A DNA stretch of 64,000 bases from Ctena decussata (taxonomy: Eukaryota; Mollusca; Bivalvia; Lucinida; Lucinidae): the NCBI GenBank assembly GCA_963989385.1, contig OZ022512.1:24759899-24823898 (forward strand), in the 5' to 3' direction. This document shows, one piece after another, positions 2,377-60,600 of the stretch (position 1 is the first letter of the stretch; each line of letters opens with the position of its first letter). Both the position numbers and the translations under genes were made by a program. Below the pieces are notes generated by a model. It saw nothing but the letters and a program-made list of their open reading frames with translations. It was not told the DNA's origin and did no database searches.

Positions 2377-5300
2377 CTAAAATGAGTGATAAAAGTTTTG
2401 TTATTACCCTAAATAAAATATATAAAATTTCTGGGATAGTTTGATTTTCGTGGAACTTCACAACATCTTTCATAAACATTATGCATTTCTAGTCCACATA
2501 ATAAATTGCATTTATTTCTGACCTATTGCATATAAAACGTATTTTTATAGCGTTTTCGGCGCGAAATAGCCTTTTTTGTGCTGATGTGGCGTAAAGTCCA
2601 TATCACTCACTCACTTCACCAAATAAATCAAATGGGTCCTTAATTCTTGGAGTATGTGTCTAATAAAACACTGAAGATTGACATCTGCTTGCATTTAAAA
2701 TAACATCTGATTAGGGTTTGCAGTGTTTCTCTTTGCAAAATATGAGCCGCGACACGAGAAAACCAACAATGTGGTTATGCGCTCAGCGCAGACTCAGATT
2801 AGCCTGGGCATCCGCCCAATCTGATCAGACTCTTCACTAAGTGCTTAAAGGGTAGCTAAGGGACTGAGCTACCTCCATGCGGACAGCGAAGACTCTGGTC
2901 AGACTGGGCGGATGCCCAGGCTGATCGGAGTCTGCGCTGAGCGCACAACTATATTGTTGGTTTTCTCGTGTCGCGGCTCAATTATGATTTTGATTCAGAG
3001 CCGGATAGCAAACACCAACATGATACTTCTGGTACATATTTAACCCATTCACGTCCAGCGTCCCATGAACGAAGGGGAGGGTGGGGAGGGGTTCTTAGCA
3101 AACAGTGAACACCCAGATCAGACGCTTTAGATCGCGGCGTCTAATCAGGAACTAACTGTTTTCATTTATATCGGTATGTTTCCGTTTTCATGGGGGAGGG
3201 GGTGGGGGGAGGGTACAGAAGACAATTATTGTGTTATTGTATTGGAGGGTGGAATAGAGAGGACACTTATTGAATTTAAAATGGATCCGTCCGGCTTGTA
3301 AGATAGATGAGTCTAATTGAGTATGGGTAAAAGTGTTTCATTATTTTTGTTTATTACGTTACGTTTCCTGTTGTTTAGTTACCTTGTGTTCCAAACTGTA
3401 GCTTTCCTTCCTGAGCACGTGACAAGGTGTCCGTGCGTACGAGAATAAGCCATGTTGGTGACCTTCTCCCCAGTCTGCCAGTTTGCCACGCAGTCTAATG
3501 TCTCAAGGTCAAATATTGAAACATTACCACTTGATGAGCCTGAAAAAAAGATAAAATGATAGAAATATCATTTAGGTGTCTGGAAGTGGGAATGGTTCAA
3601 CGCTTGTTTAATACTGCTACATCACTGAAATGGAGGATTTTACACGAGTGGTCATTTTATATGAAATTTGAGGAGTAGAGCCTCAGTAGGCTAAGTGCTG
3701 GCTTAATGACCTAGCGGTCATGGGTTCGAGACCCGCTTGAGACGGGAATCTTTTCAGCCCGGTGGGGTTCATTTGCACAAAGCCTTTCATTATCACCCTT
3801 CCATCTTCCCGATATGACTGAAATACTGTTGAAAAGGACGTTAAATCGCAAGTCAAGTCAGTGCGATGTTGCATCAACATTGTTTAAGAAATGCATCAGC
3901 TCTAGTAGGATTAGCGGAACATATCCGTAGTTACACCTCTTGGCACTCTAGTAGAGTAGCCCTAAGTTTTACAGACTGGTTGTAAAATGGATACAAAAGG
4001 TAGGTTCAATAACTTTTATTTTCAAAGAGTAACACAATGTCAGACTAGTGGTTAGTCTTAGCGCATAGGAAAGAGGCTCCGAGTCTACGTCCTCCTACAC
4101 TCGATGATGACTCTTTGCAAACAAAGGCAGAACAAACTGATACTACAAAAATAAGTGAGCCGCGACACGACAAAACCAACAATGTGGTTGTGCGCCCAGC
4201 GCAGACTCAGATCAGCCTGGGCATCCGCCCAGTCTGATCAGAGTCTTCGCTGCCCGCATGAAGGTAGCTTAGACCCTTAGCTACTCTTTGAGCGCAAGGC
4301 GGAGAGTCAGATGAGACTGGGCGGATGCCCAGACTGATCTGAGTCTGCACTGGGCGCACAACCAAATTGTTGGTTTTCTCGTGTCGCGGCTCAAGTATGC
4401 ACTGGGTCAAAATATAGTTCCCAGCTCCCCACACTTTCTGCGAGAGAGTATCTGTTATTTGAGCCACATCATGTGATTCCAAACAATGTAGCTTTGGTGA
4501 CAAGCAAAGGCTCCGGTCAGTCTGATCAGAGCATTCAGTTGTCACATCAGCCATCTATAGCATCAATTATAATTGGCCCAAGCAATACAGTCAACAATTA
4601 AGCCTCTATAAACCCGAAGTAAACGAAAATGATGCTCTGAATGTCATCTGACAAAATTGCCTGATTTTGGAAGTCACGTGATGTTGATTTTGTTATTGTT
4701 GCTGCATTAAGTTATTAACATCTAGAGCTAGGAAAATGAAAAAAAATATTACCAGCTGCAATAAATTTGGATCCAACAGAAAATGCTGTCGGAGAGCTGA
4801 TGCGAAGACCATTAGAGATTGTCTGACAATTTGGAAGAGATATTATCTTTACTGCTGCATTCTGTTCCGAGCCAGTCTGAAAAGAGTATACAGAATTTGC
4901 GTCGCGTGAAAAGTCAGCTTATACCATAAAACAAACAGGGAAGCTCAGATCAGCCTGCGCATCCGCGCATTCTGGTCAGACGGTTTCCTTTCTGCATATT
5001 AACTATGCATCATGCCGAACTTAAAAGCTCAAAATTAAAGACTATTGGCCTAACGTCAGGTGTTGGTGACAATTTCATTTTCAAGCCATCTTTATAATTT
5101 TCCCCTGATACGGTATATCTAACGGACGAGCGAACATAATAAATTTTATACCATTTAAAAGGTTATTTATTGAGTACTTGGAAGATAAAAAGAAAATCTT
5201 CATTTATGAGACATAAAAATAAATACATCGTCTTGAAATACCAAACAACGTCAGTTTTTACGCTGTAAGATGTTGCAACACACTCGCAATGCAAATATGT

Positions 5301-19585: not shown

Positions 19586-22500
19586 AAGAATTATATCAGG
19601 TTCGGTTTTGCAACTGTTATTTGGTCTCTGTGATCCGCATTCTTGGTATCAAACAGTCCAAAGATCAATTTTATGTATTCGAAAACCGTATGACATGTTT
19701 TCAAAATAGAAGTACCTTTTCTATATCAAGAATGTAAATTGTTCGTATAAAAAAAAATCAAATTTTCCCTGTCAAGAAATGATCTTTTACTTTTGCAAGA
19801 ATTCGATTTTTCTATAAAAACAATGTATCCATTTTGTTTTTGATATTAAAATATAGGCAACCTATAAGTATATCTTCTTAGTCGGCCCCTCTTTGCTCAG
19901 TCTCATACCTGGAAGACATGCAACAGCAAGCTTCTTCCCGTCCGGTGAGTAGTGCAACCCAGTCGTCTCCATTTGCAGACTCGTCGTCGCCACGTGACTT
20001 AAGTCGTCTGCTTTCCAGATCATCACTTGACCATTCTTGAAACTAGTTGCAACGTGCGCGTTGTCTGGTGAAAACCCAACGTATGTAACTGCATTGTTCC
20101 CAGTTTGTACTTCTTTTAGCTACAAAAAAGTTGAAAGAGTGGAAAGACTGTCAAGGGAAGCAACTCTGCAATTTTCACATTTTCCTCCCTTTTACAATCT
20201 GGGTCAACCCTTAAAGTATAAAATGGCTCTATAAGAGCTGATTCTTTTCTTTCAGAATAGACCTGGCCCCAAGGTGATAAAACTTTGTCCATGCTCAACT
20301 CAGCTGAGCATGAAATTTTACCTGCTAATAAATAGCAAATTACTGATATGTACAGTTGTTTTCTTGCTCAGTTTAGCTGAGTATGAAATTTCTCTGCTTA
20401 TGAATATGAAAATGCCAACATTAGTTGACATTTTCATATCTATCAGCAGAGAAAATTTCATGCTCAGCTGAGTTGAGCATGAAAAGTGTTTTATAGCCTC
20501 GGGTCCTCTTTTTCGAAGAGCTTCTTTTTCAACGTGTTTACAGTTGCTCATGAATATTGCTCCACTTTGTAAAATTGGTGGTAAAATATGGGGTGTAACA
20601 ACACATGTTAATGCCTAGCATACCAAAGATTGAGAGAAGAGATTTCTTTTTCTGGCAAGAAAACGGCTTATGTTAACAGTCGTAAAAACAAACAATATTG
20701 ATAGAAGAAAAGCATACATTTCAGCATTTTTCAAAACTTATCAAGAAGGATTTGCTTTCAGAAACTGTATTATGTTGTTGTTGTTGTTGTTGTTTTGGTT
20801 TATTATTATTATTATTTCGTTTTCATGAGTTGGCCATCTGTAAAGACTGAAAAAATCCCTTTGATAATTCTTAACATTTTAGAAATTACACAGGCAAAAT
20901 GAAACTTCTTGACAGTGGCCAAAGATAAAAGCTCAAAGTCATCACAATCTGAAACTGTGGTCTACTGTCACTAATAATGAGGTTGGCTGATCAGATACAG
21001 CACTGACGTAACATGTCACGTTAGGACCCATGGAAATCAAGACATGAAAAATCAGAAATCAGGTCACGAGGAATTTACTGATGGACAACAAACGAAGAGT
21101 GATCACATTCACTACTGGTGAGCAAAAAACAGGGAGAAATTCCCTGTAATTATCTGAAAAAAAAAACTGACCTGAACCCCCGACACATCCCACAGCATGA
21201 CTTCACCATGTTCAGTTCCGGTACCTATGACGTCACCCGTCCTTGAAAAACAAGACGGGTTCACTGGATGCAGCATAAGCTGAATAGGCTCGTCTTTGGT
21301 TGGCCAAACCGGAAGCGGAAGTGACGTCACTGTCACCAGCTCTGCTCCAGTTATAGTATCCCAAATTCTAAGAGTGCCGTCGTCTGCAGACGAAGCTATA
21401 AGATCACCTGAAAAAGAAAACACCTCTGAAATCTATCTGACTTCTCGTTTAGACTATTTTTGTTTGCAACAGCACCATTTCTTGCACCGTTTTGAATTTG
21501 CATGATAGAGATGAAAATATTTCTATCTTCATCTTCCTTACCAACAGCCCTTGTCAAAGACATTGTATTTATTTGCAGTTTACATCGGCAGTGAATCGAT
21601 CCTTTCCGCTAAAAGAAAATAAAACATGCACTTTGGCAATACACTGTTTCCAAGCGGAAAATCACTACGATTAATTTAAGGGTATTTAATAGATACTCAA
21701 AGTATGTTTCGTATCTGAAACGTTTTTAAATTCTCGTGGTACTTAAAAGGGTATTTAAACAGTACAGCTGGAAAGTGGATAAGTCATATATTTCAAGTAC
21801 CTTTGGGAGAATAGTTGCAACATCGTAATGTTTCTGTGTGTCCTTGTAAGGTCATTTCACATGGATCTTCAAAATCTTCTTCTCGGAGATTCTTCATAAG
21901 TGGGTACGGAAATTCAATGACCTCTTTCAACAGCTTTCTCAAGGAATGACTCGGTGGTAACTCCAGCGCTACCTGATATACAGCAAAGGACTTAAGTGGT
22001 TGCTATGCTGTTGCTATGGCTACATTTCTTTGAAGGAGATTCCCTACAACTATGAAATTTGGTCTGGAGGAACAGTCTTTGTAAGACTGTTCCTCCAGAG
22101 CAAATTTCATAGTTGTAGGGAATCTCCTATATAGATATTTAGCCTTAGCAACAGCATAGCAACCACTTAAGTCGTTTTATGAATACGCTACCTGGTATAC
22201 AGCAAACGGTTCATGTAAGAGAAAAGCTAGATTAGAGCCGACAAATCTCGTAAGAAGCTGAATCGTGTCATTTCCGGAAAGTCTTGTAGCTTCAATTAGC
22301 TCACTTAAACAGTCGTAACCTAACCCTGCCTCAAACTTCACTTCGATATATTCCAACTTTAATACCAGTTTTAGAAATCTTTTCCAATCTTTAAGCTTTA
22401 TTAGATGGTACGGTAGTTCATTCAGTTTCCTTTTGTTTAGTTTACGCCCGGTCTTTCTATCTCCACCAAATATCATATGTTGCTTTGGAAGCTGTCTATC

Positions 22501-25500
22501 TTCCAACTTTGGCTTTGCATCCTTTTTCTTTGGATTTGGATTGTCTACATCCGGATAAAGTTTACCTTCCTCCCATTTGCCATCAAAATAATCTGCAATA
22601 GCTAGGTGAGCCTTGTCCAAAAACGGTTCACGGTTTTCACCAAAAGCCTTGTTCAGATATCTGTCTCGAGCTGTTTCCCAAAACTGTCTGTGGTACCATC
22701 CGTACGTACTTATTCCATCCGTTCCTCGTTCAGCCAGGTAAATACCGAGTTCATTTCTAACTCTAGCCCACAGCAAAGGAGGTATTCTGCGGAAAGGTGG
22801 CGTCCACCATTCAAAGATACTGTCTAGGAGCTCATCATCACAGGAGAGAATGTCTTCGAGCTCAGCCAAAGACAACCCATACTTTGCTACTGTGATATAA
22901 GAAAGAGCATGGTGCACGAAAAGCTCACCGTAGCGAGATTCTAGTCTCTCAAATAGCCTTGTAATCAGGCCTGGCATATCTGTAGCAATATCTTCAGCTG
23001 TTACTTTATCATATGAGTGCCAGCGAAGGGCAATGTCGGCCGATAACCGCAGAAAAAGTGGCAGTGGACAGCTTTCAAACGCTTTTAGAATAATAATTCT
23101 TTGTTCTTCTGTTACTTTTCGCTTTTCCAAACTCAACATTTTATCAAGAATTTCAGGCCCTTCTTTCATATCTAGTTGTCTGACTTCTACCATGTTTTCT
23201 TCCGGTACTGATCTTTTCAATATATCAAGAATACCTGTCGGCAGTGATGAGACTATTAGTTTCACATTGGGCGGTAACTCTTCGTTGAGAGATAGCCAAG
23301 CCAAGTTGTGAGCGAAGTCTTCATGTGACAGCTGATCCAGAGAGTCTAAGTAAACTACCAGCGGTCTGCTCTCGGTCGCAAACTCCATACATGTTCTGAA
23401 ATATTTTATCAAGTCTTTGTAGGACCCAGGCATTTTAGACAGCATTTCATGTTTTCCGTAAAGTCTTAATATTTGAGTGCATGTGCTTTGAAGCAGAGAT
23501 CTTGCAGATCCGGATTGACCCGTAGTTCCTAGAAATCGTAAGACAACCATACTATTTGGTACTGTGACACTTGTTTTCTTGGCGGAAACGGCCATTAGAG
23601 CTGTCTTCCCGCATCCAGACCTTCCAAATATAACAAGAGGCTTTGTATTGTCAGACTTGAGATAATCTGTCACGTGTTTCCTTTCCTTCTCTCTTCCGAT
23701 GAATAGTGAACTCTTATCCAAAGCCAGTTCTCTGTGTTGTATTACTTCTTGGAAAGTTCTGTCAACTGTTATATGAAGATTTTCCTCATAGTACTTCAGT
23801 ATCTTTTCAATTAAATCCTTACAGAGGCGGTCACAGACAGCTTTAATTTCATCCGCTACTTCTTTTGATTGAGCCGTTTCGTAATCAACTTTTAACACGA
23901 TATCATCTGGTGCAGCACGCCTAACTTTCTCTTCTCTCAGCTCCCGTAACTTCTGTTGAGCATACTCATCGACATTACCATCTTTCATATCAACAATCTT
24001 TCTGTGTAAGTGAAAATCACCAAGTGCGTCTTTTAAATCTCTTTCAATGAAGAAAGCTTGTGAATCCAATTTAGGATTAGTAAATACTCCGTTAATAATC
24101 TCAGTTTCTGTAACAGATAAGAAGTATTTGTCGGTTATGTTTTTGTCATCACCAAAACAAGCCGTGGACGCTTGTCTCATCTGTTTCTGCATAATATCTG
24201 AGTTGCTCCACCAATCTTTGTCTTCTTTAGACATTGGTTTAAGGACGTACTCGGCGGGAACAGCATTCTTGTCGACAGTGTAATAGTTCTTAATTAAACT
24301 GGCGTCTTCTTTCTGATTGGTCAAGTAAGCTATCATTTTGTCGAGTTCTGACTGGTCAATAGAAGCAGGAAGTGGGCGGTATCCATACTTGTGGCTTAGC
24401 AGGCAAACGAAAGCTGGACCAGCGCTGTTTTTGATGCATCTGGAATAGAAAGGGTATTTTCCTTTATAATTTACTATACCCGCCATATTATTATTTCAGA
24501 GGATAAAACATGGCGGGTTTAGTATGCTAAGCAGGAGATAATATGCTTACATCTCTGAAAAACGAGGTACGTGCCTTTTCACTGAAATTTTAGACTGAAA
24601 TATACTCAGTTTGCAGTTTGTAACTCGACAAATGTTCTGTTTTGCCTGTATTTAAGGTGTCGGTAAGGTGACATATGATTACTTGTAGAAAACGATGGCG
24701 ACTAGGCATACATCTGAAGTCTTAATGAGGAGGTAACTGGCCCGATATAAAACCTGTAACTTGGTGTGTGGGGGAGGGGGGAGAGAGGGATTGGGGGAAT
24801 AAATCGTCAAATATATGGTTGCAAATATTGTTCCGAGACGCATCAGCGGAACCGTAAATGCAATTTGTGACCATAAAACCTCCCGAAATGACAGTTTTCA
24901 TTATCCACATTCTAATTTACCTTTTTGGACATTTTCATCTATCAAATTGTACTACTGTGCGCCCACAGTAAGTTATGACATTACATCGGGTTGCCAACAT
25001 TTTATCACAGGATAGTAGATTCACATGTTGCGTTATATTCGTAAGTGCATTAGAAATAGTCTGTATGTGCATCGGACGGTAACTGAACATTCTGAGACAT
25101 GGATGATTGGACTTACTTCTGTATCTCTTTAACACACATGTCTACGGTACTATGGTCATTTGTCGCCTCCTCTGTTACTCCCCATCGCATGTCTACAGTC
25201 CCAAAGTCTACACCAAGCCGTCTGCACAGAGTACGCATAAATGGGTACACGTCTACAAACAGTACAATTTTGTACAAATGCATACCACACTGGCCTTTAA
25301 ACGCAAAAATTAGCACAAAATATTTCGTAACATGTAATACCTGCTCTGATGACCGTGGTATACTATATATAGAGACAATGTCGCATGCATCTGTTAGCTA
25401 ACTCTTCAAACCATTGTCTGAACTTCTGGGGTAAAGCGACTCAGAAGGAGCGAATTTGTTTCACTAAATTTGGTACATTATGCTGAAGCCGAGTCTCTAA

Positions 25501-27488: not shown

Positions 27489-29492
27489 TGTCTATTAGTA
27501 TCTGTGAGATAGACATTGTATTGTCATTTATTGTTTTCAGAGTTGTACTTTGTATGTACGCTTATGTGGCTTGGTTTAAACAGTATTTTATTAAAGTAAG
27601 CTACATACATATATATAAATTTACAAATCATTTTAACGTAGGATCTGACGGTAAGCCCAATGCTTATATAATAGCCATCTCCTAGGTATAATAGCCATCT
27701 TCTAGATATCCTATGTGGCTTATCAGAATGTCTAAAGGACGAGTGGTTCGCCAGCTGAGCTTCCCTCTTTAGATAACAAGACCTTACTTACTTACTTACT
27801 AAAACCAGTTGCATGCATAAAAGCATTGTGGTTTTATGTATTGCGACAATTGCGACATGAGGACAAGCAATATTAGATTTGTACTTACTTGAGAGATGGG
27901 TTTTCTTGGTTTTCGTGATATCTCGTCTGCTTTATTCAGGTATTCCCGCCATTCCGGTCTTTGTTCCCGCTTCACTCCGTCCCATAAATCTTTGTCTGCG
28001 ACCTGGTCCAAAACTTCCAGCCATGTCATTTCTTTTCCGCCGTCCCCTTCTTTGTCCTTTGAGTATGTTTTGTACATTTTGTTAGATTTTGATGTATTCG
28101 TGCCACTCACTGTAAACAAGAATACGGGTAAAGTACATGTAAATATACGCGACTACGCTGCTCATTATGGTGGCTGGTTTGTGCCATTTCGTCTTTTCGT
28201 CTTTTCGCCGCGAAAAGACGCCAGGCGAAAAGACGAAAAGACGAAAAGACGCCATGCGAAAAGACGAAATGACGAAAAAACGCCAGGCGAAAAGACGAAA
28301 AGACGAAATAACGCCATGCGAAAAGACGAAAAGACGAAACCCGCCACGCGAAAAGACGAAATTTCAGCGCGAAAAGACGAAAAAAACGCCATGCGAAAAG
28401 ACGCCATTTGAAACTCTTAATTTGTCGTCTTTTCGCGTGGCGTCTTTTCGTCTTTTCGCCTGGCGTCTTTTCGTCTTTTCGCATGGCGTTATTTCGTCTT
28501 TTCGCATGGCGTTATTTCGTCTTTTCGTCTTTTCGCGTGGCGTTATTTCGTCTTTTCGTCTTTTCGCGTGGCGTTCTTTCGTCTTTTCGTCTTATCGCAT
28601 GGCGTTATTTCGTCTTTTCGTCTTTTCGCATGGCGTCTTTTCGTCTTTTCGCATCACGTGTTTTGCATTAAGATGTATCAATAAATCCTATTCTAAATGC
28701 AGTTAATACTTTGAAAACTTAGACAGGTGTTTCTTTTTTTTTTAAACTGTGTAGACCCTGATCAGAATGCAATCTGTAAAGAAGTGTACTAATCACGGTT
28801 TGCAGTTTTTGCCGCTAAACTGTTCTTTTAAAAACATTACCAAAAATATGAGGAAAGAAGTCATTATGGTACTTCTACTGAACGGGCAGAAAAGAAAAGG
28901 AGCCGTCCTAATGTTTTGGAGTAAAATACTCCAAACAAGTTTCAACATATCTTAATTTTGATCTTAAACTGCCTAAAAGATTAACCACTTGTTGACCATG
29001 TAATCTCTCTCAAACTATGGAAGACGAAGGTGTCTATACAAACATTGAAACACTGTTGCACATCGCTGTAAGTGTTATGATATGAAAAAATAATGATACA
29101 GTATTTTCCCTAATTTGACATACATTTAACTGCAGCTAACCCAAAATTTGAACAAGTTTATAGTTTTCTAAAGGCGTGCCAATCGCAGACAGAGCAGAGC
29201 CTGATTAGACTTCTCTTTGGCTTTCGCATATGTGTCCCAATATATAAGAATTTTATATTGAAAATGTGCCCCCTTCCGCCATTTTTACAAAGGGGCACAA
29301 CCACCGTTACTTCCTCTACAAGTCTTCTTTAAACGACAGGGATGGATTTTGCTAGCTCAACTAGGGCAGCTGAAGACAGGACTTGGTGGAAAAGGAGTGT
29401 TGTAGAGTCATCTGTGGTGCCCCAACGACCTCACAAGATTATGGGATAGACTAGACTAGACTAGCGGTTGCAGTCAGTTCGACCCCCGCCCC

Positions 29493-33127: not shown

Positions 33128-33369
33128 AATACTTCACCTGAATAATGATGATAATAATAATAATAACGAAAGAGAACAGCGGGCACAGAAAGTGTACAAC
33201 AATATTGTATGAACGTTGATACAATGTTATGTTGGAACAATCTGTGCCGGCGGAAAACATTCAAATATTACCATCTACTTCCGTTAGGCTACTACATTGT
33301 ATTTTGCGAAAATTTACGTTACGACTATGCGGCTAGAACCCATGTCACTGAAGTTCCTACATTAAAGAA

Positions 33370-33637
33370 CCTGGGCCCAGGTTCACAATCATTCCTTAAA
33401 CTTAAGGACGACCTTAAAGTTAAGGTGTAAAATTTCATGTGTAACTAAAAGCTTACAAAAACTACATGTATTTGATTTTTCTTTCGTATTACATTTCTAT
33501 GACAATTGTCAGTAGATTCACGCAAAAAATGCAGTTTTTAATATGGTTTGAATATGGATTTTCTGAGGGCGAAAATTTCCACCTTAACTTTAAGGTGGTC
33601 CTTAACTTTAAGAATGATTGTGAAACTGGGCCCTGGT
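33370..33637. mobile_element. 268-bp MITE with long inverted ends, upstream of the NWD-like start
   Basis: Ends cctgggcccaggttcacaat and attgtgaaactgggccctgg, continuing inward for about 55 bp (cattccttaaacttaagg / ttaactttaagaatg). Lies 240 bp upstream of the NWD-like start codon, so possibly within its promoter. Confidence 0.8.
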
Positions 33638-48600: not shown

Positions 48601-51600
48601 TATATCCTTCTATCCAGAAACGTTTAGACACTGACGATACCACTTACCGTATTATGCCTGCGAACTGTGAAACATGGCTTTTAAAGTCATGTAATGTATG
48701 AAGTTGAAATCTGATTTAACCGTGGTTGTAAAAACTCACCAAGTAGGTCAATCGCTGATTGGTTAGGCTTTGCAAATGATAAAGGAATAAAGACTGTATA
48801 TGCTGCCTTCATGCGAAGTAATGAAAAAATTAAAAATCTACATTTTTCTTCCCAGAGTGTATCTTCAGAGCCCAAACGTTTCTAGATATAATATTATATG
48901 CCCATTATCGGTGTAAAAAGATCTGTAAAATATTTTGACTGCAGATATATTTCAGAAATAAATGTTAGAAAAAAGTTGTTCAACTGTCACACGCAGTTTC
49001 CCACAATGTCTCGTAGTTAAAACTTTCGTCTACGTAAATTTGCCAACATACCGTGGTATACATTTCTTGCCATTTTAGTTGTTAGGCCGGTATGTAGGAT
49101 CTGAGTGAAATAAAACTTGATCATTGCCTCTTTTTTACTTCCAAAGCAAACAGAGCGCACGTGTGTGTCTTATGTAAATTGCAACCAGATTGCCATATCA
49201 TTTTTAGCTCACCAGAGCCGAAGGCTCCGGGGGAGCTTATAGGATAGGCAGTTGTCCGTCGTCGTCGTCGTCGTCGTGTCGTATGTCGTCGTATGTCGTC
49301 GTCTGTCGTCCGTCAACACTTTCAAACAACATCTCCTCTGAAGCCACTGGGCCGATTGGGCCCAAATTTTATCTGTAGCATCCTTGGGCTGGGGGATTGA
49401 AAATTTGTGTTTTTTATGAAAATCGGCTAATTAGTTTGGTTGCTATGGCAACTTAGAGTTCCCATAGGCTTATAATGGGGAAAATCGAAAAATGGCATTT
49501 ACTGCCAAGCCATTGCAGATATTTTGACAAAACTTTTATAGAAATGTTCCTTAAGAAGTCTTCCATCAGCCATATGTTTTTAGGCCCACTGCTCTTTTTA
49601 TTGGTTGCCATGGAAACCAAAATGCGAAAAAGAACAAAAACAGATATTTAAAAATTATCTTCTCTGAAACCGTTAGGCTGATTGGGCCAAGATTTCATCT
49701 GTAGCATCTTTGGGCTTGGGGATTGAAAGTTTGTGTTTTTTATGAAAATCTGCTTTTTAGTGTGGTTGCTATGGCAACTTAGAGTTCTTATAGACTTACA
49801 ATCGGGAAAATTGTAAACTGGCATTTACTGCTAAGCCATCAAATATATTTTGATAAATCTTTCATAGAAATGTTCCTTGAGAAGACTTTTATCAGGTTTA
49901 TGTTTTTTAGCCCACTGCGCTTTATATTGGTTGCCATGGAAACCAAAATGCAAAAACAGAAAAAAAATACTTAAAAAATTATCTGCTCTGAAGCCAATGG
50001 GCCAATTGGGCCCAGATTTTATCTGTAGCATCCTTGGGCTAGGGGATTGAAATTTTATGTTCATTATGAAAATCGGTTTCTTAGTTTGGTTGCTATGGCA
50101 ACTTAGTTTCATTGACTCATAATTGGGAAAATCAAAAAATGGCATTTACTGCGAAGCCATTGCAGATATTTTGACAAAACTTTCATAGAAATGTTCCTTG
50201 AGAAGTCTTTATAAGCTATATGTTTTTTGGCCCACTGCTCTTTTTATTGGTTACCAAAATGAAAAAATAGAAGAAGAAAAATACCTTAGATTATCATGTC
50301 GGAAACCATTTGCTCTATGAGGCAGAGACTTCATAGACATACAGATCATATTAGCCTTTACAGATTTCATGTTTTCCATTGTCACTGTTCAAAGGACATG
50401 GTTGGTATGGCAACTTATAATGGAAAAGAATAATAAATGGCATTCATTGCTAAGTCATTGCAGATACATGTATTCTGAACCTACATTTTCAGAAATATTC
50501 CTACAGTGGTCTTCAATTAGCCCTATACTTTTTCTGCACACTGCTCATTTTGATCATGGCAACCAAAGGGGAAAATAATCACAAAAAAATTCTTAGAAAG
50601 TTATCCTTTTTTGTTGCCAGGGCAATCAAAATGTGGAAGATAGTTATATATTTTGTTATCAACACAACAGACTGTCAGACTGAGACTTTGTAGTTATATA
50701 TTTTGTATTCACCATTACAAATGTGACAGCAATCTTGAGCCTATATTGATGTGGCAGCAATTTTGAGCTAGAGATCTGGTGAGCTTTGTGGCCCCTGGGC
50801 CTCTTGTTTTATTATATTCCAATATGGAGATTTCTACATTTTGGTACCTTTCTCATGCTATAAGTATTTATCAACGGATTTCCTTCAAATTTTGCATATG
50901 CATTTGTACCGAGAATGTCTCGCTTGGGATTGCTAATGGGCAAATTTCGTTAATTTTTGACAGAGTAATGTAGGAATGTAAATTGCTTGATTGGTTTTTA
51001 ATTATTATTTGCCTAAAACTTGGCCGTTTGCAGGACTTATTGGATGACCCTCGTAGTGGCCAACATAATTATATAAGTATGGGTGTCACATGCTATTAAG
51101 GGGCACAACATAACGAACACCAAACCGTAAATAACAAAGACGTAACGTTAGATGTTGGTGACAATTTTATTTTCAAGCCAACATTATAATTTTCCCCTCA
51201 TACAGTATTTCTAACGGACGAGCAAACGTAACAAATTTAACACTATTTAAAAGGTTATTTATTGAACATTTGGATGATAAAAAGAAAAATTTTCATTTAT
51301 GAGACATAAAAATAGATACGCCGTTTTGAATGCCAAACAACGTCAGGTTTTACGCGGTAAGACGTTGCAACGCACTCGCAGTGCAACCTAGTTATTTTAG
51401 CTTAAATTGGAAACCAGAGCTCAGAAACAGCTAAAATTTTCACCATCGATGCGAGTGGCGTAACGTAAACTCACATTGGAATGCCAACAAGTTAAGCCTT
51501 TCCGTCTGGAAGAAAACTTAAGATTTAGCGATTCGAGAAAAGGGTAAAGTTCAGATTTTTGCACTAAAAAGCGGCACCCTACGAAAAATCAAGGGATCAT

Positions 51601-54600
51601 TAAAGAACGATACGAAGCAGAAGTGAGTAGAAAATTTACTGGCATACAATACCGTTTCTGCATTTTTGAATTGTGAAATCAGACTTCGACGTGTGTAATC
51701 CGATTTAAAGAAATACCAAATTTCCCAAATCTAGCAATTTTGTCCGCAACGCCAGATTTCTTTATTTTGCATACAGGGTGGTATTTTCTGAGCATAAAAA
51801 TCATATCAAACTTGAATATAAAGTAAATATAAATTAGGCGGGCATGATATACCTATTCCGAATAGTTCTTTCCTGTGAATGTTTTTGGAATTTATTTTAG
51901 AGAGCCGATGCAAAATACAAATAAGCAAATCTAGCGGTTTTGTCCGCAACTGTATTTTTACGTTGATGACGTTCTACTGAACTCGAGAAAAGAATCGTAA
52001 GATGTCCCGAAAATTTATATCTTCCGAATATATTATGCTAACAGTTGCAGTTTGCAATTAAATTCACACTCAGTAAGTAGAGGCAAGTCTGTTCTAAGGG
52101 GTAACCCAAGGGACACAAAAAATGGCTGCTTAAGACAGGTGACCCCTTAATACCGGTTCATTTGCACTGTATTCTGGTTCTAGGATCCTGAAAAGTGGCT
52201 ACTAAAGGCAGGTGGCACTTTAATGGAGGTGACCATATAAGCAGGTTTGACTATATTAATTTAGGATAATATTTCAAGAAATGCGCTGTGGCCGTTGCAG
52301 TGAACTGGCAATAGAGCTCAAAATCTAACGTTTTCGGACGTTACGCTAATTGTCACCAACATCTGACGTAACGTCAAAGCGATTCAAGCGCTGATAATGC
52401 CTGACTTGCGGCTTTTAATATGAAATATTCAGAGGCATTCTCTACCAATATACAGAAGCAAGCGGTTACTTTGCAGTTATCGCTTAAAGACTTGTATGCA
52501 CGAGTTATTCAGATTTGGATTTTGGAACAACTGGACAACAAGCAACATCGAGTGAAATATTGAAAGTCAACATGATTTTAATTTGTAAGCTGTTGTTAAA
52601 GGTTGGTCAAAAATTCACAAACCTGACCTGAAACGAGGATTTTTTAAAGAAATTCATAGTGCGTATACATGTAGGTATTTACCAGATAATGGCGAGAAGG
52701 CCGACGAAATGGTGACTAAACAGTTTTGTTATTTTATAGCATCGTGGTTGAATTTATGCAATAAAAACGATAAAAATGGGGTTTCATTGTGTTAAGAATT
52801 TAATATTTGCCAGGTCTTTCGGGGGCCTAGAGACCTGGTAGATATTAATGCATGAAAACCATGTTTGATCCATATTAAAATAACCGCAAATTACGCACAT
52901 TTTTTCCATAGGCTTCCATAGATAAACACATGTGCCAATGTGGTTCTTATGAGAAACCTGGGGGACGTGGTTGTTAACATTCGCACTTGCATACGATCTA
53001 ATATAGGTACTAGAGATGAAAAGTGTCAAAATGCAGAATCGCATACAACCAGCATCTCACAGGCACAAATAAAACGAACAGAAGCGGAAATTTTGTTGAG
53101 TCTCTGCTTTTGCAATTTGACTCGAGTCGCGCCGCGAGAAAACCTTTAAAGTTATTGCGAATCTAACCAGTAGGCCTATGCAATTTAATCAACAGATAAA
53201 TGTTCTACCCAGTAGAACTTCAATGGCTCGAACCCTGATGGCTCGTCCACCCTGCCTGGCTAGAACTCTTTTCTTGGTGCCTAGAGATCACTTTATATGG
53301 AAACTAACCCTGGGTGGCTAGAACTACCCTTGGCTGGAACTAATTTTCACGGCCCCAAGCCTGTTCGAGCCAGTGAAGTTCTACTAATCGCCACTAATCA
53401 GACTGTGCATGTGTACATGCTGATCTGGCCAAACACAGTTCGCATGTACTTTCAGACCGGATTTATGATCAGGAAAACAAACCAAAATCATGAAAAATTG
53501 CTGCCTGAAAAGCAGTGGCCACAAGAGAACTTCTTCTGGACACTAAAGCCTGATCTAACAAGCGATTCTTCACTATTTGTACATTCTGTTTGTGAGAAAA
53601 ACAGATCCAGATCATTTCTACTTGTTGAACAAACCTGCGCAAGTTTGATCAGGTCCACAAGAAAAGGATCGAGATGGACACGGTTTAGTAGTATCAGTAA
53701 ATGCCGAACATTTCTAAACACAGGTCACTTTTATTTGGTGACCAAACTTGCTGGCTGATTGGCTAAGGGTAATTCCTTGCAATCTTACATGAAATCTACT
53801 AGATTAAAACCAAGAACAGGTGAAGATTGACTTGGGTTTGGTAGAGGCGTGATTCGATCACGGTGGCAATCCAAGGACTACACACATTAATGTGTGCTAA
53901 GCGTAGACCCAACCTTTTTGTAAAAGCTAATACTTGTCATTGTTGTTGTGTGGATGGATTGTTTTAGATTGATTTGTTGCTTAACAACTATGGTCATGTC
54001 GGGCCGGTCAGTTAACCTAACCACACTATTCCTGGGCAGGCTTAGACTTCCTGAGCGGTTAACCAGTGCTAAGTGCACATACTTTCCCCAGTAACTGACA
54101 ACTGCCCTTCTTGAATCAGCGGAAGGAGAAACGAACGTATGTGGCCAGACCGGGTTTCGAACCCAGGACCTCTGACATGAGTCCGGTGCCCTAGCGATTG
54201 CGCTACGCGGCCCTGCTGTTTGACTTGCAATTTTACTTCCTTTATATCAGTATTTCAGTGATATCAGGACGATGGTTGGGTGATAATGAAAGGCTGTGTG
54301 CAATGGAACCTAGTTTACGATTTAAAAGATCAACGCTTATAGAAGGGCTCGAATCCGGGACCGCTACATCAGCAGGCCAACGCTTAACCTACTGAGCTAC
54401 AGGGGCTCCTATATTATTGTTGTTATTATTATGACTATTTAAACTGTAATTTATGTAACTAATTTGTAAGACTAACCTGAATCCATTAATTTTTGTAAAA
54501 GGAGCACCGGTAGCTCAGTAGGTTAAACACTGGCTTACTGATCTAGCGGTCTCGCGTTCGAGCTCGACTTGTGGCGGGAATCTGTCCAACCGTAAACGGA

Positions 54601-57600
54601 GTTCTATTGCACACAACCTTTCATTATCATCCTCCCGTCATCCTTATATGACTAAAATACTGTTACAAAGGACGTAAAGTTAGAATTCATTCATCCACCC
54701 TTACTGTTTGTGTGCAAATATTTACCGCATTCGTGCTCGTGATACATGGATTGAAAAGGCTTCAGCGCGTGGAAATGTAAATGCCTCACTGATAGCGTGG
54801 CTGGCTGCTCACAATTCCACGTACTGAGGTATCTTAAACCCATGCACTCTGCGCAGTCACCCAGAAACTACTACATCTCTAATGTACGCTCAAAGAAGAC
54901 GCAGATCAGCCTGGACGGATGCACATCTATGCTATCCCAATGTAGAAAATGTGGGAAGTAAGGTATCTTTTTAAGCGCATAACACCCTGATCAGATTGGA
55001 TTAAGTACCCAGGCTGATCTGAGTCGTCGATGGGTGCACAATAATTTTGTATTTTCATTCGGCTTCTCATTCACAATTATTAAGTCACGTCGCTGATTCT
55101 GAAACCACATTGTTGCAAATGGTATGACTAATGTGATCCCACAAAACAGATTTTTTTCTTATATAAAAATCATCCTTACTTTGTCATATTATGATATTCT
55201 GATATCACACAATAGACGATTTTCATCACAAAATAGACCACAATTTAGATTTTTGATAGAACAATATTATCGTGAGGAAACATGCGCGTGATTAATGACT
55301 GATATCATTATCTTACAGAATAGGTCATCAGGGTAAAGCGTACAATAACTCCTCAATAAGGAATACAGTGGTCTGGACAGACACGAGAGGAATGTGTACA
55401 GCTGTATCTGCAACTCTTCATCAGTTTGACTTGAAACTGTCAACAAAGCTTGCAAACAGTAACAATATCAAGTGTATGTTCATGTCAAAAGATAACTCTA
55501 AATTATATTTAAACAATGCAAATTACATAATTACTTACTTTCGGACATTTAGCGACTCTTGTTTTGCCTCAACTTCGAAATGTTACCCTTCGTTCGAAAG
55601 GAGTTTAATAATAAACTCATGAAACTATTTTAGCAGAGTAATAGGATTTTATTTCTTACCTGTATAGAGTTTACCGAAGCAGAACAACTATAAATGATGC
55701 AGTATATGCTGGATTAAAAGTCAAAACAAACCGATTTCCGACTACTCGTTATAAGCGAATGTTTGTCATCTCGGAAAACACATCAGATACATCCGGCGTA
55801 TGGTACAGTCAGTTCGGATACTGTGAATACAGGAGCTCACTTTTCAATCTTTTTCTCCAATTTACTAGTTAACAGTCAATGGACATGATGGAAAGTGGAT
55901 AATTGCTTTGTCTTTTGATAGGTTTAACATGCACTAAACAAAAGTAGGTCGGTATTTCTTGATAAAGGCGATTTTGTCTGCAACATTAATTGATGTCTAA
56001 AGACACTAAAGAAAAGGTCAATTGTAGATGAGAGATCGGGTAATCAATGAAAGTAAAAATGTAAATATCAGTATAAAAACATAAAATATGGACGTCGGAA
56101 TACCGGATATCTCATATTATGGGGGTGAATATGACCCAGGGTTTGACCTCAAAATAAAAGTAGGTCACAGTGACCTCTATTTCAATTTGTTTTGTTTTGT
56201 TTCATATCCCTTATTGGCCGTGCTAACTCACAAGTTGTCTTGTGAAAATACCTTGTAATGTGAAGTAAATGCAGATCAGTGACCTATGTTTCAGGGTCCA
56301 TTGATTTTGTGTATTTTTACACGTCAAGAAATTGTGCCAGATAGTGGTAGCTCTGTTTGTGCCCTACTAGGCACTTGCTGAGATATTTTTAAAATACTTC
56401 ACTGTCATATATGTCCTATATTTCAGAATGTCAGCAAGCCAATAGTAGCTGTGATGCCTGTGTAAAGGTTGGAAAAGTCCAGGTAATAAGTTGTTTGATG
56501 GTGATTTTATTAAGGTGTATGGACTATGGGTACATTTTGAGGGGAAGCAAGTCTGTCATGTTCAATTTTGCCTCCTGTGTCAATGGGAATCAACTCTAAA
56601 AGGAGAGAATTTGCTCCCAAAGGAGCAAATTCTTTGCTTTAAGAGAAAATCTCAGATTAGAAGGGTTTCATCGCCCAAGGAAGCAAACAGGAAGTTGCAA
56701 AAGTTGGTTCCCTATGAAAAATTGGTGGAAAATGTGGGGATGTACCCATGCATCTTCAGGACCTGACAAATCCATTGTCCGGCTGCCCGGGACAAGTTAA
56801 AATCTTTGCTGGGCAAGTAAAATATTTTCTTACTTGCCCAGAAAAATGTATAAGCTATATAGGGAAATCATTAGAATTTCAGTATTTTGTTGCAGAAGAT
56901 ATGTACCAGACATTCACAAGTAGATCAAATTTTGATTTGTCAAGCCCTGCACAGTACATCACACATTTTACGTTCATTACATGAAAGAGACCCTATGGAA
57001 ATGCTAAAATCATGACCCAGTTATTCTATCAAAGTTGTTAGTCAAGGATTTTTTAAGTGTGTCACTATATTAAAGGCTGCAGAAGGAAGGGGATTGTCTC
57101 CCCCTTTCATAATATGCTGTGCCCAGGACACAGTGGGCCTCTTACTTCCACTGCACCTACAACTACAAAGCTATGGGAAACCTTCACCTACTATCTTTTG
57201 CCGAAAAATTTGGGGGGTAAATAGAATTTCTGCATGTGCATAGATGGCTCTTGCAAATAGGGAAGACTTTGACCAGACTGGATGCATGTGCAGGCTTATC
57301 TGAGTCTTTCCTGTTTATACATGCCCTAAGGCTTGGTGATACTTTGTAGCATAGTTTGACAATTACAAGTGGCAGCTCATATACCTGAGCAGTGAATTCA
57401 GGCTTACTGCATTCACTATTCAGAATAATCAAGGATGGCAATCCAGTTCTTTATTATATACCTATCACTGATACACCCTTTGAACTCCCTGTTTTCTGGC
57501 CACCTGATACAGGAAGCCGTATCAAACTGACATTTTCTGAATCTGTATCACTATCCCTTAAAAGGAGGCTGAGTTCCAGTTTCAGGCGCGTCAATTTTTA

Positions 57601-60600
57601 ATTTGCATCGTAGGAACGAGAACCTGATTAGTGACGTAAAGTCAACGAACACGACAAAAAGCGTGCCTCACTTGCTTGGTCAGTAGCATATGTCTCACGA
57701 ATAGCTGCCTACCTCTGCCATGCAGGTTCAAATCTGGGTTGATGCATTAATGCTGGCAAGTATGAATGGTTGGCTGTCACGTAAGGTATATAATAAACAA
57801 ATTATTATAATAGTAACTTGATCTGGCATACTGTATCAAGTCTCGTGAATGAGCTCATACCATCGGATCACCCTCGATGCAAGTTTCTTGGGTGATCCCA
57901 TGGTGTGAGCTCATCCACTCGACGTGATACAGTACTCCAGATCAAATTACTATTATAGTAACGTGAATGTATTTATTTAGCTATAAGACAGTGGTTTTCC
58001 CCTCCAATAGAAACCCCCAAAATGTAGATCTGTCTTATTTTTCTAGATTTTTGGATTATTGATCTGGTGAAAAAAAACATTTTACCGCAGAATTACAAAT
58101 GACATTTTGGTTTCCGCTATCATCAGTTTCATAAGCCGGAGATCCCTTATTGGCTCAGGAGCATTGCTTGAGAGCTGATAATGGTGGAGGGTTCAAATTA
58201 GAGACCGATAAAGAAAATGCCAGGTTTTAATTTGTTTATCACATATGCAGATCCACTGTTTATTGAGTTATAATGAGTAGCATTATAATATAGAGGCTCT
58301 ATGGTATACTGTTTGTCTTGGACGGACACACAGCGCCAAGTGTGTGCAACTATGGTTACGTACCATTGAGCCACTTGGGGAACGTCGATAGGAGAATTGA
58401 ACTGAACTGAACTATACTGTTTGTTTCAGTGTGTGTGGTGTAACAGTAAAAAACAGTGCCTTCTTAAGAACAAACTAATTCCAACTGACGAGTGTGGATT
58501 GGCTGATGCTAAGTGGGCAGTTTGCTGGTGTAAGTATTACATGCGTGAAAGTTTTCAGGATTGATCCTGATTTCAGGATTTTGATGGCAGCTGCTCCTAT
58601 ATGATGTATAGGCATATTTACCTTTTCAGGGTTAGAAAATCTGGATTTCAGAATATGGATATCTTAAACTTTTCACCCATGGTAATAAACTTTTCACCCA
58701 TGGTAATAATACATGTATAATTCATGTCCAAATGATGAAGCATAATGGAAAGCCATAGCGTTAATTTCTTATATTGTGATGGCTGACCATCACAAAGGAA
58801 AACCCCCTCAAGTACTTTTCTGCTGAGAAGCTGCTGGGAAACCTTGAGTTACTCATTCAGCTACAAAAAAGCAAGCATTATTGATACTTTTGATCATAAT
58901 AGTTTAGAAAAAATAAAAAGAAAACATGAGTACCGACACGAGAAAACCAACAAAGTGGTTGCGCACCTAGCGCAGACTCAGATCAGCCTGGGCATTTGCC
59001 CAGTCTGATCAGACTCTTCCCTAAGCGCTTAAAGGATAGCTAAGAGTCTAAACTACCTCCATGCAGACAGCGAAGACTCTGATAAGACTGGGCAAATGAT
59101 TTGAGTCTGCGCTTGGCACACAACCACTTTGTTGGTTTCCTCTTGTCACGGCTCACATATTGTTTTTAGAAATAAATTGAGTCGACTATACAGCAATTTT
59201 TACCTTATTTCACCCATACTTCTGTAAAAACAACCAAAATATAGACTCTTTCAGGGTGGCCACAAGCTCTGGAAAATAGGGAAAACAGGGAAAATGATGA
59301 AAAAAAAATCCCTGCAGGGAAAAATCAGGGAATTTGAAAATTTGATGAAAATCAGGGAAAAATCAGGGAATTTTAGAAATTCTATTTTGATAACATGAAA
59401 CTTTTCAAGCAGGTATCATGGTTTCTGGTGGTTTCTTACTGCAATTGGTGGTTTCTTTCTGCAATAAAATAAGTGTAAGTCTCAGTTTCAGTTCAGTTCA
59501 ATTCTCTTATCGACGTTACCCAAGTGGCTCAATGGTACGTAACCATAGTTGCACACACTTGGGGCCGTGTGTCCGTCCAAAGTGTAAGTCTCCTTCTGAC
59601 AACTGTATGATATACATGTACAATTTAATTAGTTTAAGGGGTATAGTGCGAAGTATTGAATAAGCATTTTCCTTCCATAGGTCCAAAGTGTAGGTCTCCT
59701 TCTGACAACTGTATGATATACATGTACAATTTAATTAGTTTAAGGGGTATAGTGCGAAGTATTGAATAAGCATTTACCTTCCATAGGTTTCGAACTTTGT
59801 AATGAGCATTTATCTGAAAGCAATGATTTGTAAAAATCTAATACAATAAAAGAGATTTTTCTGTAGTGGAGAATTGAAAAACAATCTAAATTGAAATATG
59901 AATGTCCAGTTTGTGTGGTTACGGTCATGTGTGTTACATAATTCAGTTTTGCATGCTTCTCTGAATTAGCATTGTATGCTTACCTACTTATTTTCTTGAA
60001 ATTATAAAGCTATTTTTGAGCTAACAAAAAGTAGTTTTAGGAAAAAAACACTGAAAGTATTCTATGAGCAGCAAGTTTTCAGCTACATTTATATGCATGT
60101 GTTAATTTACTTTATGGTTCAAATAAAGTATAAAATAATGTGTATGGTAGACTGTCAAATAGCCAAATGTTGACATCAAATGATCCTTGATGCTAAGTTA
60201 CTGACACTGTAATTTAATGAAAAATTAAATATAATTCTATAGAGTGTTAAGTATTGTTTGTGCCTCTAAGTTCAGTTCTAAGTAATCTATACACCAGATA
60301 TGTGTAAGTTATAGAACATTTTACACCACTGGTTTAATGTTGTGTAAGGAGACATTTTGTATTGTCTGAAGTCCTAGGGTCATCTTGTTAATAGTTTAAT
60401 AGGTTTCAAATGGTCTTTTTATTGTCTTCAATACTCAGCTTTGGGCTCCTGAAAGAGAGAAGCTTGCTGAATATCTTTGAGAAATTTGGACCAAACTTTT
60501 TGTCTTCCCTTCTTTTCGATACATATTAGCTTGTAAATTCTCTGAACTGAAACTCAGAAGGAGGGAGCATTTCTTTTTGGCTCAATTTCCCTCAGGCTAA

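Follow-up and report, generated by a model that had tools for sequence, protein, structure and literature searches.

By sequence comparison, the 219-nt insert in the longest exon of an NWD1-like gene of the bivalve Ctena decussata contains a recently inserted MITE, and it is probably an intron in birth. The element has lost both of its tips and is framed by two copies of a 21-bp piece of the exon, each of which carries a potential splice junction. The window analyzed here is a stretch of 64,000 nucleotides (contig OZ022512.1 of assembly GCA_963989385.1, forward-strand positions 24,759,899 to 24,823,898), and unless stated otherwise, coordinates refer to this window.

RESULTS

The host gene and its split exon

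The minus strand of the window carries an NWD1-like gene, in which Pfam comparison identified an HTH_NWD1 domain (PF25469, 2.7e-17) together with NACHT and AAA domains (PF13191 and PF05729). Protein search hits for this gene include named Ruditapes, Mya, and Mercenaria entries. Exons matching homologous proteins were placed by tblastn at 28077-27868, 26399-26268, 25253-25098, and 24441-22192, the first exon being uncertain, and further exons matching homologues lie downstream of the insert. The longest exon of the gene spans 24441-21801 and is interrupted between 22192 and 21972 by 219 bp. The relevant features are as follows.

22192-24441, minus strand: upstream part of the split exon, with the NACHT/AAA and HTH_NWD1 domains (Pfam; tblastn with homologues)
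21801-21972, minus strand: downstream part of the split exon, VALELPPSH...CCNYSPKG (frame, homologue alignment, tblastn)
21973-22191, minus strand: proposed new phase-0 spliceosomal intron, 219 nt, GTAGCG...ATATCAG (frame and sequence, fold, uninterrupted in 21 of 21 aligned homologues)
21967-21987, either strand: 21-bp duplicate, copy 1, of which 21973-21987 would be intronic with the 3' splice site CAG/ (direct-repeat comparison)
22186-22206, either strand: 21-bp duplicate, copy 2, of which 22186-22191 would be intronic with the 5' splice site /GTAGCG (direct-repeat comparison)

A search for solved structures by sequence found none, and searches of the window with Rfam (gathering thresholds) and for tRNAs gave no match. 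Near the first exons of the gene lies an inverted array of ~450 bp (28211-28663), whose short repeat units, present in either orientation, translate to VFSSFRLFAWR-like strings.

Structure of the proposed intron

The two copies of the direct repeat (21967-21987 and 22186-22206; 21 nt) are identical at 20 of 21 positions and have a start-to-start spacing of 219. Between them lies an inverted repeat with 103-nt arms (21977-22079 and 22083-22185) that are 89% complementary around a 3-nt loop. On the coding strand, the passage reads GAA CCG TTT GCT GTA TAC CAG / GTAGCG...ATATCAG / GTA GCG CTG GAG in phase 0, and each 21-bp copy contains CAG/GTAGCG, i.e. AG/GT in both. Removal of the 219 bp, a length equal to the repeat spacing, joins EPFAVYQ to VALELPPSH with the frame kept in phase 0; at the predicted spliced junction (22192/21972), CAG is joined to GTAGCGCTG. 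In the unspliced reading, the frame stops after VYQVAYS. An earlier note on this DNA had described a hairpin insertion between 21-bp duplicates with one mismatch, an AG/GT in each duplicate, and an intron whose length matches the duplicate spacing and whose removal keeps the frame, all of which the sequence confirms. Its numbering of the insert as intron 5 has to be revised to intron 4 by the exons that match homologues, subject to the uncertain first exon.

Folding of the intron RNA gave -143 kcal/mol compared with a mean of -44.9 (S.D. 4.25) for 200 shuffles. From letter frequencies, the chance that a given pair of 21-mers has at most one mismatch is ~3e-11, or ~3e-6 when 300 x 300 pairs are considered. 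As a control, 2000 pairs of intervals were drawn at random from the window, and 21 of them reached a score of at least 17, which is that of the 21-bp repeat; these 21 are presumably tandem and simple repeats, unlike the exon.

AGGT occurs on the coding strand in 72 of the 2228 21-mers of the exon, which favors an insert that survived because it was spliceable. The donor, CAG/GTAGCG, fits the common donor consensus only as far as +3; it is judged to be modest and is counted against splicing. On balance, we consider it likely from these features that the insert is spliced out as proposed.

The insert belongs to an abundant MITE family

A 240-bp query gave 1232 candidates in the Ctena decussata genome (1.66 Gb, 245 contigs), and the 40 that were scored all matched, the intron copy included. 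The other 39 scored copies were retrieved for consensus building and tip anatomy. Their consensus is 223 nt long, including one base of each target copy, and is 91% palindromic. An intact copy is a palindrome of 221 bp tipped by GGG and flanked by a 3-bp duplication of its CWG target; the layout is CW/G GGGCCGTATTCATAAAAC...GTTTTATGAATACGGCCC C/WG, and the tips of the family are GGGCCGTATTCATAAA. Both tips were recognized in 33 of the 40 rows; within these, C was present at L-2 in all 33 and G at R+2 in 29, and the two W bases agreed in 24 and disagreed in 9. The excess of W equality over shuffled pairs corresponds to z ~3, this being the best of 48 length and register settings scanned. Taken more broadly, the target site forms the weak palindrome AAGAYCW/WGRTCTT. 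Assignment to a TTAA-type or hAT-type MITE was dropped, given that W is repeated directly and not invertedly.

NuwaI is a group in the PIF/Harbinger-ISL2EU-Spy (PHIS) superfamily with a CWG duplication, and the accessible part of its definition specifies terminal inverted repeats of 12-61 bp that usually start with GGG and a DDE transposase with a partner Myb/SANT protein (PMC4482050). The GGG start is present in the consensus of the MITE, and the inverted repeat covers the whole 221 bp, compared with 12-61 bp in this definition. In the genome, 153 matches to PF13359 (Harbinger-type DDE domain) were reported, and many of the matches listed lie in long open frames. By these comparisons, the hairpin is a copy of an abundant non-autonomous NuwaI-like MITE, with the CWG target established for the family and not provable for the intron copy. 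The inner differences between the arms are common to the family consensus, and so the hairpin is older than the insertion. De novo formation of an inverted duplication at a break was rejected, given that the arms carry family-specific asymmetries.

Two patterns searched for MITE copies in viral contigs gave no match. Copies of the family that start with AGGTGCCG would be one change short of carrying their own donor.

The window is rich in fold-back elements. Two fold-back repeats of ~240 bp (2743-2980 and 4156-4393), which also form a mutual inverted pair (243 nt, 88%), show no long flanking duplication and probably represent another MITE family. Long imperfect palindromes at 54221-54689, 57802-57961, 58914-59168, 20265-20506, and 33369-33637 have best flanking repeats of 7-8, as do random pairs, and across 17 other fold-back intervals in the window no flanking repeat scored >9. 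A ~325-bp unit with GGTTGCTATGGCAAC-like motifs is present three times at 49430-50110.

Age of the insertion and continuity of homologues

Of the 197 positions compared, the intron copy departs from the 39-copy consensus at 7, each time in a way that 7-19 other copies share. Its private changes number 0 of 197, against a mean of 1.85 in the other copies; the copies sampled for this estimate are those most closely related to the query, a choice that should not make truly private changes look shared. From the rule of three, we infer a divergence since insertion of below roughly 1.5%. The insertion thus looks very young and is possibly still segregating. With no private changes, there has been little time for selection to prove splicing.

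A search of ~5.8 billion proteins returned 23 hits, of which 21 were aligned; P0022 and P0023, weak nematode hits with coverage of 53-66%, were left out. The YQ/VA passage is continuous in all 21 aligned homologues at identities of 41 to 94%, the empty site being judged here at the protein level. Identity is highest for P0001, at 94% across residues 600-823. In 13 of the aligned proteins (P0001-P0008, P0010, P0012, P0013, P0020, and P0021), the sequence ends or departs from the alignment where the next exon ends (SPKG), and seven (P0004, P0006, P0007, P0008, P0010, P0016, and P0021) have unrelated residues just ahead of the exon start RCIKN. Such stops and starts look like the pattern of single open frames called on unspliced DNA; for P0007 and P0008, which lie on contigs of 2.7-2.8 kb, the contig end could equally explain the stop. 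When a 139-aa junction query was run against the Ctena decussata genome, this locus only was found (two candidates at first look), with no intronless paralogue or second haplotype at that sensitivity. Given that a second locus is absent at the sensitivity of this search, P0001 derives from another genome.

The combination of uninterrupted homologues and a young MITE copy supports the view, in agreement with the earlier note, that the proposed intron was gained recently when a fold-back element inserted. The note had also suggested comparing orthologues and searching the genome for the hairpin, and the continuity of the aligned proteins and the matching of all scored genomic copies both bear out its reading. 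Likewise, its remark that 21 bp is unusually long for a DNA transposon holds, as the family duplicates 3 bp, CWG.

Lost tips and a proposed origin of the duplication

Comparison with canonical tips resolved the junctions of the insert into the following features.

21988-22185, plus strand: tip-less copy of the 221-bp NuwaI-like MITE, with the left tip (~18 bp) and the right tip (~6 bp) missing (genome matches, canonical-tip comparison)
21973-21975, plus strand: CTG, which for a canonical insertion would be the left-hand CWG duplicate of 3 bp (family target, register)
22192-22194, plus strand: CTG, which for a canonical insertion would be the right-hand CWG duplicate of 3 bp (family target, register)
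21976-21987, plus strand: ATATACAGCAAA, replacing the left tip and matching the right flank GTATACAGCAAA at 11 of 12 positions; the last AAA is a possible microhomology (canonical-tip comparison)
22186-22191, plus strand: CGCTAC, replacing the right tip CGGCCC and equal to the left flank; the first CG is a possible microhomology (canonical-tip comparison)

The right-tip replacement, the CTG, and the left-tip replacement add up to the length of the repeat (6 + 3 + 12 = 21 bp), and the sole mismatch between the 21-bp copies (G/A) is the first base after CTG. A CWG is found in 1151 of the 2228 21-mers of the exon, and the presence of CTG is therefore weak evidence for canonical targeting. A long target duplication as a trait of the family was rejected, intact copies having 3-bp CWG duplications; the 21-bp duplication is unusually long, and the 3-bp chemistry of the MITE does not explain it. 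Erosion of intact tips by point mutation was judged unlikely, as three clustered changes on the right and, on the left, a loss of 5 bp with replaced sequence would all have to match the opposite flank.

The following course is proposed. A non-autonomous NuwaI-type (PIF/Harbinger-like, CWG-targeting) MITE would have entered the NWD1-like exon at CTG very recently, and both tips of the element would have been lost during or after insertion. Each flank would then have acquired a short stretch copied from the far side of the target (12 and 6 bp), and the lengthened flanks would have been rejoined to the element via the AAA and CG microhomology, with a 21-bp exon duplication around the hairpin as the outcome. 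The duplicated piece holds CAG/GT, and the upstream copy would hence serve as the 5' splice site and the downstream copy as the 3' splice site, such that splicing would remove the element plus exactly one copy. Canonical insertion at CTG, flank-templated repair making two splice sites, and splicing are favored here as a joint reading, to which we give a confidence somewhat short of even. We infer splicing and the order of the repair steps; the identity of the element, the lost tips, the duplication, the uninterrupted site, and the youth of the copy are direct observations.

Other damaged copies of the MITE

A genome pattern search for copies without a tip found 91 places (one for a control pattern), all of them in copies L042, L048, and L051-L137. 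One-tip scoring covered the 71 hits in L051-L120, with L121-L137 left out. The opposite tip is kept in 59 of these 71, and L075, L062, and L089 exceed the null maximum of 13 (585 null comparisons). The right end of L075 is canonical, whereas CTG and 64 bp of right flank stand in place of its left tip; the two copies of this unit (1442-1509 and 1722-1789 of its 3-kb region, which holds two unit copies) are identical at 63 of 68 positions, counting the shared C before CTG, and four of the five differences are C/T. This divergence of 5/68 is above what the age of the element implies, from which a pre-existing duplication is possible. L075 accordingly supports, and does not prove, flank-copy repair. 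L062, with an 18-bp flank copy starting 26 bp into the flank, is a weaker case, and L089 is a tandem array. Among the 59 one-tipped copies, the proposed scar is thus confined to L075 and perhaps L062.

A uniform comparison covered 108 of 127 copies, L121-L137 included, the other 19 being without a recognizable core. Scores were 53 for L075, 21 for L089, 18 for the intron, 17 for L010, 15 for L062, and 14 for both L041 and L044, against a null maximum of 16 (600 cross pairs). Given that the two-tipped copies L010, L041, and L044 score near or above the null maximum, the statistic alone is no proof. Three of the 108 copies lack both tips, one being the intron copy itself. A second copy with both tips lost and long flanking duplicates was not found: 12 of the 71 hits have no recognized opposite tip, and the 11 of these that were scored have no flanking repeat >12 nt. 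Damaged tips with small internal duplications of the tip itself were seen in L060, L087, L103, L111, L117, and L118, for example; judging from these duplications, it is as if MITE ends are often cut and repaired.

For comparison with introners, 77 other copies were taken together with ~1.5 kb of sequence to either side, and the core could be placed in 76. None of the 76 interrupts a long open frame, an analysis that would miss short exons; the longest open frame joined across the insertion is 165 aa in the other copies compared with 562 aa at this locus. These 76 copies are a sample of the 1232 candidates, and other introns from the MITE family remain compatible with the result. The intact MITE starts with GGG, not GT. 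Taken together, these results demonstrate neither a burst of introner insertions nor the introner-type status that the earlier note had in mind. In the tip-less copy L088, the joined flank holds an exon-like stretch, HPLEFLMYQTFLAIPAFTVPLHVG, which ends close to the element and which may be hydroxylase-like; this copy is perhaps also an intron insertion.

Alternative origins

The close rival to CTG insertion with flank-templated repair is a 21-nt staggered double-strand break whose ends, once filled in, captured a broken piece of the MITE through microhomology, with no transposase acting at the target and the insert spliced as proposed. Both exon copies would then come from one step, the tips that a transposase needs are indeed missing, and the AAA and CG microhomology at the joins would fit; moreover, the accessible text on Daphnia neointrons ascribes their 4-12 bp exon repeats to staggered breaks (PMC4202315). 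The 21 bp found here, however, exceeds that range, the one mismatch coincides exactly with the edge of the CTG, and no second copy with both tips lost and long duplicates was present among the scored copies. The direct exon repeat at both intron ends (21 bp, 20/21) does not itself separate the two routes. Such a break is a realistic origin, though we hold it to be the less probable one. The earlier suggestion of another route, such as a staggered break, is thus retained insofar as 21 bp is not the usual duplication of the family, whereas copying of flanks over lost tips is preferred to the break itself.

Either repair route is also compatible with a gene-breaking insertion, and the likelihoods given to these readings are therefore not all exclusive. 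Here, the insert would remain unspliced, the protein would end after VYQVAYS, the allele would be null or at low frequency, and AG/GT would be coincidental. The youth of the insert would suit a broken allele, as would the single locus in the assembly with no intact second copy found, but the scarcity of AGGT in the exon, the equality of intron length and repeat spacing with the frame kept, and the continuation of homologue-matching exons downstream make it unlikely. LINE-driven retroposition of a MITE transcript is very improbable: target duplications of ~20 bp are common in LINE retroposition, and the duplication length and truncated ends would agree with it, but no A-rich or repeat tail lies beside the insert, the family otherwise has 3-bp CWG duplications, and other tip-less copies with 10-20 bp duplications are largely absent from the 108-copy comparison. 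For an old intron in which the MITE later took the place of the interior, no supporting point was found, and this reading is hardly credible given that all 21 homologues (41 to 94% identical) are continuous, that 13 of them stop at the next exon end like single open frames of unspliced DNA, and that the duplicated exon piece would be left without explanation.

DISCUSSION

At this one young event, the element, its target, the uninterrupted relatives, and the footprint can all be read, which offers a rare view of a probable intron birth. Under the favored reading of CTG insertion and flank-templated repair, failed or aborted transposition may turn a non-introner transposon into an intron, the repair taking off the tips and carrying exon sequence over both ends so that a matched AG/GT pair results, a generalization we advance tentatively. 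CAG/G is the exon-junction consensus, and because of this, CWG-targeting elements such as NuwaI may be predisposed to intron formation. Where staggered breaks at new introns have been deduced from direct repeats, some of those repeats may also be repair scars of ordinary transposons.

Rogers and Hellsten have reportedly described intron gain by tandem exonic duplication of a segment with AGGT, in which splicing removes one unit. As in that model, the duplicated AGGT would supply both splice sites in Ctena; here, by contrast, a transposon lies between the duplicates. With NuwaI, as far as the accessible part of its description extends, the MITE shares the CWG duplication, the GGG tips, and an animal host, one mollusc being listed; it differs from the NuwaI elements described there in being a non-autonomous 221-bp palindrome, and the intron copy lacks both tips (PMC4482050). 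The Daphnia pulex neointrons are alike in having a direct exon repeat at the ends of a recent intron, with repeats of 4-12 bp in the portion of that work available, whereas the repeat in Ctena is 21 bp long and surrounds an identified MITE (PMC4202315).

Introners are the other close comparison. Within the accessible text of PMC9860276, introner families comprise 5 to over 2,000 introns, target duplications in earlier families are 3-9 bp, two animal groups are represented, and a Florenciella family takes both splice sites from the insertion site (Fig. 2E legend). Introners and the Ctena case are alike in that a short non-autonomous DNA element turns into an intron, in Ctena probably so; according to the same portion of that source, introners form many-intron families with 3-9 bp duplications, whereas the Ctena case is one event with a 21-bp duplication (PMC9860276). 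Among the literature matches listed (titles and abstract starts, with subscription literature mostly outside), there was no report of a Harbinger- or NuwaI-derived intron or of bivalve introners. In summary, introns from DNA transposons and introns from staggered breaks are known, and the present case is a variant of these in which a single identified MITE has lost its tips and both splice sites would come from a long exon duplication.
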